Part shown: one piece after another, positions 57,338 to 57,607 of the stretch
Layout of the letters: each line of letters begins with the position of its first letter
Numbering within the stretch: the first letter of the stretch is position 1
Source: Bacteroidia bacterium
GTDB taxonomy: Bacteria; Bacteroidota; Bacteroidia; SpSt-205
DNA: 64,000 nt
Reading direction: 5' to 3'
Assembly: GCA_026003215.1 (NCBI GenBank)
Contig: BPGV01000001.1
Span: 647,570-711,569 of the forward strand
Made by a program: the position numbers and the translations under genes
Notes under the pieces: model-generated
What the model was told of the DNA's origin: nothing
The model's database searches: none
Seen by the model: the letters and a program-made list of their open reading frames with translations, nothing else

Positions 57338-57532
57338 TCAGAATAACGAATAGACCCCACGCATAATGGTACTAAAGAGCAAATCTATTACGCCTATTAC
57401 GATGGCCAGCAGGAGACTACCTACCAGCACCGCAACCGTAGTACTAAATAGCTGTGCAAAAGGAGGCCACTCTACTTTTTCCCGCCACTCAGTATAATAC
57501 TCCTTCCACAGCCGCGCAAGGCGCTGTTTCAT
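57338..57532 (-). CDS. secE: preprotein translocase subunit SecE
   Basis: A 64-aa single-span membrane protein. An amphipathic N-terminal helix (LWKEYYTEWREKVEWPPFAQL) precedes the membrane segment (about 31-53, VAVLVGSLLLAIVIGVIDLLF). It stabilises SecY in the translocon. The ATG lies 2 bases after the tRNA-Trp discriminator base, and its A would be the A of an encoded CCA. Confidence 0.93.
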   Translation of the reverse strand: MKQRLARLWKEYYTEWREKVEWPPFAQLFSTTVAVLVGSLLLAIVIGVIDLLFSTIMRGVYSLF

Positions 57533-57534
57533 GG

Positions 57535-57607
57535 CACGGGTGGCAGGACTCGAACCCGCAACCTGCGGTTTTGGAGACCGCTGCTCTACCAGTTGAGCTA
57601 CACCCGT
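57535..57607 (-). tRNA. tRNA-Trp (anticodon CCA)
   Basis: 73 nt. The acceptor ACGGGTG/CACCCGT, anticodon stem GCGGT/ACCGC with loop CTCCAAA, and T-arm GCGGGTTCGAGTCCTGC are canonical. The bases after the discriminator are CCA, and that A is also the first base of the secE ATG. The tRNA-Trp-secE-nusG order is common in bacteria. Confidence 0.97.

Follow-up and report, generated by a model that had tools for sequence, protein, structure and literature searches.

Protein-coding genes that begin directly behind tRNAs in a family of Bacteroidia: candidate tRNA punctuation on a bacterial chromosome

In animal mitochondria, tRNAs stand directly before coding sequences and punctuate the transcript: their CCA ends are not encoded, and tRNA excision makes mRNA ends that are leaderless or nearly so. 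Leaderless mRNAs are also known from Actinobacteria and Deinococcus-Thermus, where a promoter element lies directly before the start codon and there is no Shine-Dalgarno sequence. Bacterial operons that join tRNAs to mRNAs have been described, namely E. coli tRNA-tufB and tuf-tRNA-Trp-secE; many Bacteroidia have tRNA-Trp followed by secE, with a spacer of at least 13 nt between the two. Plant chloroplast tRNA genes encode the first C of the CCA end (C74) alone (PMC3161902), while in P. acnes the tRNA is cut after C74, i.e. between the two Cs of CCA, and leaderless starts with UUG directly at the 5′ end are rare (3%; PMC3848588). Leaderless mRNAs have been reported as few in Bacteroidota (1/37 genomes; PMC3160421) and as 5.5% of mRNAs in F. 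psychrophilum (PMC9723704), while PMC5397173 takes a different view of their rarity in this phylum. A precedent for tRNA punctuation in bacteria was not found in the open-access literature, a scope outside of which most subscription journals lie.

Here we describe a family of Bacteroidota in which coding sequences lie directly behind tRNAs, as in mitochondria, with CCA not encoded and with (nearly) leaderless mRNA ends that we infer from DNA. Unlike the mitochondrial case, the genes lie on a bacterial chromosome and have ordinary promoters, the arrangement concerns some of the genes only, and the starts are found 1-4 nt past the tRNA, the first C being encoded. The family shares the promoter placement of the Actinobacteria and Deinococcus-Thermus, but uses the Bacteroidota promoter TAnnTTTG; it has the tRNA-Trp, secE order of other bacterial operons, but a spacer of 2-3 nt; and, in contrast to the chloroplast and P. 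acnes cases, the encoded C is nearly universal across its tRNA genes and would bear on where mRNAs start. We propose that excision by RNase Z of tRNAs, and of a look-alike that precedes tuf, probably sets the 5′ ends of leaderless mRNAs in this family.

The tRNA-Trp/secE junction and its spacing

The DNA analysed (the window) is a stretch of 64,000 nucleotides from contig BPGV01000001.1 of a Bacteroidia bacterium (GCA_026003215.1, the present genome). Its minus strand carries the order tuf - tRNA-Trp - secE - nusG - rplK - rplA - rplJ - rplL - rpoB - rpoC. tRNA-Trp(CCA) (57607-57535, minus; ARAGORN, and Rfam RF00005 at 70.6 bits) ends in a discriminator G at 57535 (sequence and ARAGORN), which is followed by the two letters CC (57534-57533, minus) and by the ATG of secE at 57532-57530. 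The secE start thus overlaps the letters CCA, as the first-pass annotation had stated. secE (57532-57338, minus) encodes 64 aa and begins 2 nt past the discriminator; TIGR00964 (38.8 bits, cut-off 27.55) and PF00584 (55.1 bits) place the product in SecE. The start is the first Met, and both the start and the 64-aa length are identical in 12/12 family genomes. nusG (56782-57327, minus; TIGR00922) is the next gene in the secE transcript, and rplK, rplA, rplJ, rplL, rpoB and rpoC lie downstream in the same direction (46412-56785, minus; Pfam and ORFs). A viral scan using RpoB found nothing.

The nearest promoter was said in the first-pass annotation to lie before the tRNA, and this is the case: TAACTTTG, a Bacteroidota -7 promoter element at 57626-57619 (minus), overlaps the TAA stop of tuf and stands 11 nt ahead of tRNA-Trp, and the same element or a near variant occupies this position in most of the family. 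Using the 4-nt gap between the -7 element and the transcription start given in PMC6847099, transcription is predicted to start at about 57614, some 7 nt before tRNA-Trp.

Of the 12 family genomes, 11 have 2 nt and one has 3 nt between the tRNA-Trp discriminator and the secE ATG. A genome of a sister family (G012) has 4 nt, and the 61 named Bacteroidia whose junction could be read have 13-136 nt; the order of tRNA-Trp followed by secE is itself common to many Bacteroidia. The first-pass annotation had counted long, variable spacers in relatives against its reading; short spacing holds throughout the family, and long, variable spacers occur only outside of it. The letters within the spacer are CG in four genomes, CC in three (the present genome, G007 and G010), CA in three, CT in one and CAC in one, so that the first C is conserved and the second base varies. 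By this comparison, the conserved feature is the spacing of 2-3 nt, kept beyond chance, with the second base free to vary. Tight spacing was also considered as a trait of the whole phylum, and rejected: when 395 Bacteroidota genomes were searched for tRNA-Trp, one to four nucleotides and ATG, a pattern that requires exact tRNA stretches and covers only matching tRNA-Trp variants, ten besides the present one matched, in none of which the ATG is the secE start (0/10).

A tRNA-like structure in front of tuf

The gene for EF-Tu, tuf (57624-58811, minus; ATG at 58811-58809; TIGR00485, 726 bits), is preceded by a tRNA-like structure (58873-58816, minus), 1.3 kb upstream of the secE junction, which consists of an acceptor (GCCACU/AGUGGC), a D-arm-like hairpin, a variable hairpin and a T-arm. 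Its 3′ end is a discriminator-like C (58816), followed by C (58815), UAU and the tuf AUG. A -7 element conserved in the genus, TACCTTTG (58892-58885, minus), stands 11 nt ahead of the structure, the same distance as between TAACTTTG and tRNA-Trp, and its predicted transcription start is at about 58880. Also on the minus strand, a DNA methylase (PF01555) is split into the overlapping ORFs 58902-59372 and 59299-59757, which match profile positions 1-113 and 120-220; the cause is either a frameshift or an error in the sequence.

In each of the 11 genus members (G000-G010), TAnnTTTG is followed after about 11 nt by a tRNA-like structure before tuf. Across the genus, the element has an acceptor-like stem of 6-7 bp, a D-arm-like GCUC/GAGC hairpin and a T-arm with the loop UUCGANU. 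A C follows the discriminator-like base in 10/11 genomes as parsed, or in 11/11 with a bulge admitted in G008, and 2-3 nt separate this C from the tuf ATG, the acceptor ending about 3-4 nt before it. In the acceptor, 62/66 cells are paired, with G008 counted as having two mismatches, and none of 20000 shuffles equals this value. Among eight distinct sequences, 97% of cells in the arms are paired and 7/14 pairs show two-sided changes; no shuffle out of 500 matches this covariation, and pairing falls to 28-50% when the arms are slid. The latter count omits G008, whose acceptor needs the bulge, and was made on the arms only because MAFFT alignment of the whole leader misaligns the D arm. The acceptor, D-like and T arms thus form a tRNA-like structure with covariation. 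We rejected the possibility that it is a decoding tRNA, since the Rfam RF00005 model gives no match to it at E≤10 and its middle hairpin, which differs between genomes in both length and sequence, shows no constant anticodon loop. All 71 outgroup tuf genes lack the element, and 56 of these have tRNA-Thr(GGT) 21-189 nt upstream. In searches for an orphan T-arm with an acceptor, tuf was the only site in 463 kb of family DNA, and a full acceptor match occurred once in 464 kb of the present genome, again at tuf.

EF-Tu binds the acceptor and T-arms of tRNAs. A leader that is mainly regulatory, to which EF-Tu or another tRNA-binding protein would bind and thereby repress tuf, is therefore possible, and the presence of the element at tuf alone in the DNA examined is in its favour. 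We consider it doubtful as the main role: the geometry from the end of the element to the AUG and the C in between match those of true tRNA-gene junctions, and processing alone would explain both. The regulatory and processing roles are not mutually exclusive. In the punctuation that we propose, the structure, lacking a tRNA anticodon arm, would take the place of the tRNA as the cut signal.

Gene starts behind other tRNAs and predicted leaderless promoters

secE is one of several genes that begin right behind a tRNA. In the present genome, ATG starts lie 2 nt past Arg-TCG (rplY) and His (DUF2480), and 3 nt past Ser-TGA (fbp) once its discriminator is correctly placed; GTG starts lie 4 nt past Gln (prs) and 3 nt past Phe (PhoD-like); and ligA starts with ATG 7 nt past Asp, but with TTG 1 nt past it in G010. 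TTG starts exactly 1 base past the tRNA are seen for dxr (Val-CAC), tig (Leu-TAG) and an OsmC family gene (Met) in the present genome, the loci read being L131, L145, L119 and relatives. Within the window, tRNA-Val(TAC) plus C (40828-40902, minus) is directly followed by tRNA-Thr(CGT) plus C (40755-40827, minus), the single C being the entire spacer between them, and a lipoprotein-like ORF then begins with GTG at 40754, 1 nt past the tRNA-Thr discriminator; C followed by GTG is found at this junction in G010 as well. Three tandem tRNA pairs have a spacer of one nucleotide, and it is C.

Several of these starts are conserved. dxr begins with TTG after a single C behind tRNA-Val(CAC) in every genome where both were read together. 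Behind tRNA-Leu(TAG), the tig start in ten genomes is TTG at +1 in six, GTG at +1 in one, GTG at +3 in two and ATG at +10 in one (G008), and the exchange of TTG and GTG at one position supports that position as the true start. For dxr, tig, OsmC and fbp there is no in-frame upstream ATG, GTG or TTG within the tRNA, and alignments to the family profiles begin at or close to residue 1. Coding sequences that abut a tRNA are thus conserved at secE, dxr and tig. A long ORF at L147:3-1586 (minus) was also observed behind tRNA-Leu(CAA), with CTG directly past the discriminator, no nearby ATG and a membrane-anchor-like N-terminus; its start may be non-standard. Judged from these junctions, tRNA-abutting starts are a lineage-wide pattern, some of them kept across species, of which secE is one case. 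Against general punctuation stand the rarity elsewhere of leaderless UUG starts, as in P. acnes, the looser junctions (ligA at +7 in the present genome, tig at +10 in G008) and the fact that about two thirds of the terminal tRNAs in the present genome have no gene start that close.

The present genome also has promoters of the kind expected for leaderless genes. In a sample made up of the window and 20 spread 20-kb stretches (464 kb), with crude gene calls (first ATG of ORFs of at least 120 codons), 56/322 genes carry a TAnnTTTG whose first base lies between -16 and -11 from the ATG, compared with 0-1 for six control motifs, and the peak is at exactly -12 (26 genes). The element spans -12 to -5 from the transcription start in F. 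johnsoniae (PMC6847099), so transcription from an element at -12 is predicted to begin with the A of the ATG. No such TAnnTTTG peak before ATG is seen in other Bacteroidia. Shine-Dalgarno motifs show no enrichment in the same 464 kb, and a search of the DNA of the present genome examined gave no 16S rRNA. Leaderless mRNAs thus appear to be frequent in this lineage, and the genome appears fit for leaderless translation.

It could be argued that ribosomes simply start at the secE AUG on an uncut precursor, the tight spacing being a product of genome compactness, with no need for a ribosome-binding site; the missing Shine-Dalgarno enrichment and the tight packing of protein genes in operons as well agree with this. 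We consider it unlikely. With the tRNA folded to within 2 nt of the AUG, the usual ribosome footprint would be occupied, and no ORF lies upstream to which translation could couple. In addition, uncut RNA would give no tRNA-Trp, and a tRNA-like fold is kept before tuf without a decoding role.

A separate promoter within tRNA-Trp, which the first-pass annotation had named as evidence against its own reading, would give a leaderless secE mRNA independently of tRNA processing. Leaderless promoters are common in the present genome, but secE's own promoter sits before tRNA-Trp, TAnnTTTG is absent from the tRNA sequence, and positions -12 to -5 of secE are T-stem and acceptor, nearly identical in 12/12 genomes. 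Such a promoter is thus very improbable, and excision of the tRNA is the reading that we carry forward.

C74, RNase Z and the proposed punctuation

C follows the discriminator in 43/44 tRNA genes of the present genome, whereas CCA does so in only three, the two bases past the first C being near random. The corresponding numbers are 42/45 with C and two with CCA in G010, and 232/232 with C and 22 with CCA in the other named Bacteroidia (L032-L111). An encoded C74 without an encoded CCA is thus almost always the state of tRNA genes across Bacteroidia. As C74 is encoded anyway, only the second base must be C for CCA and ATG to overlap at tRNA-Trp/secE, and we read this overlap as a coincidence of chance letters. 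A tRNA-Trp with an encoded CCA was accordingly rejected, since relatives show CA, CG, CT and CAC. That CCA is encoded and kept, so that one transcript yields either tRNA or secE mRNA, is the least credible alternative, the letters being present in 3/12 family genomes but replaced in the other nine, and a CCA-adding enzyme being present in the present genome. The dilemma between tRNA and mRNA raised in the first-pass annotation therefore falls, and the spacing in relatives favours its other branch, an RNase Z cut near the discriminator that would release an almost leaderless mRNA.

All 12 family genomes encode RNase Z. Its best PDB match is entry 1y44, the enzyme of B. subtilis (E 2.9e-44), and the Zn motif, HEAT and HST mark it as bacterial-type, although a pattern search did not find HST in 2/9 sequences. 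CC after the discriminator usually inhibits RNase Z, and the CC behind tRNA-Trp in the present genome therefore argues against cleavage at secE. C74 has been reported to be the strongest inhibitor, acting via the PxKxRN motif of the enzyme (PMC3161902). This motif is not kept in nine family RNase Z sequences, where it reads P[LA]HGRH; the comparison covered the family only, so the change may be phylum-wide. The altered motif would fit precursors with an encoded C74.

We therefore picture, from sequence comparison, the following order of events, in which cleavage, translation without a leader and the role of the tuf element are all inferred. The TAACTTTG promoter would start transcription about 7 nt ahead of tRNA-Trp, RNase P would cleave the 5′ end of the tRNA, and RNase Z would cleave its 3′ end past the discriminator or past the single encoded C, the missing CCA letters being supplied by the nucleotidyltransferase. 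The second product would be the secE-nusG-rplK... mRNA, with its 5′ end 1-2 nt before the AUG and translated as a leaderless message. The same punctuation would provide the 5′ ends of the mRNAs of dxr, tig, rplY, the osmC-like gene, DUF2480, fbp and probably others, the RNA left after excision beginning at the start codon or 1-4 nt ahead of it; with a cut past C74, the dxr, tig and OsmC mRNAs would begin exactly with UUG, and that of secE with one extra base. Whether tRNA excision is the lineage's general route to leaderless mRNAs, with a tuf mimic that evolved to be cut and is perhaps sensed by EF-Tu, we regard as evenly balanced.

If this is true, tRNA punctuation, known from mitochondria, would extend to bacteria, and a family rich in leaderless mRNAs would exist within a phylum regarded as leadered. 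The tRNA mimic at tuf is well suited to testing whether a tRNA fold can persist solely as a processing signal. For the organism itself, tRNA maturation would be tied directly to the production of SecE, NusG, ribosomal proteins, RNA polymerase and EF-Tu.
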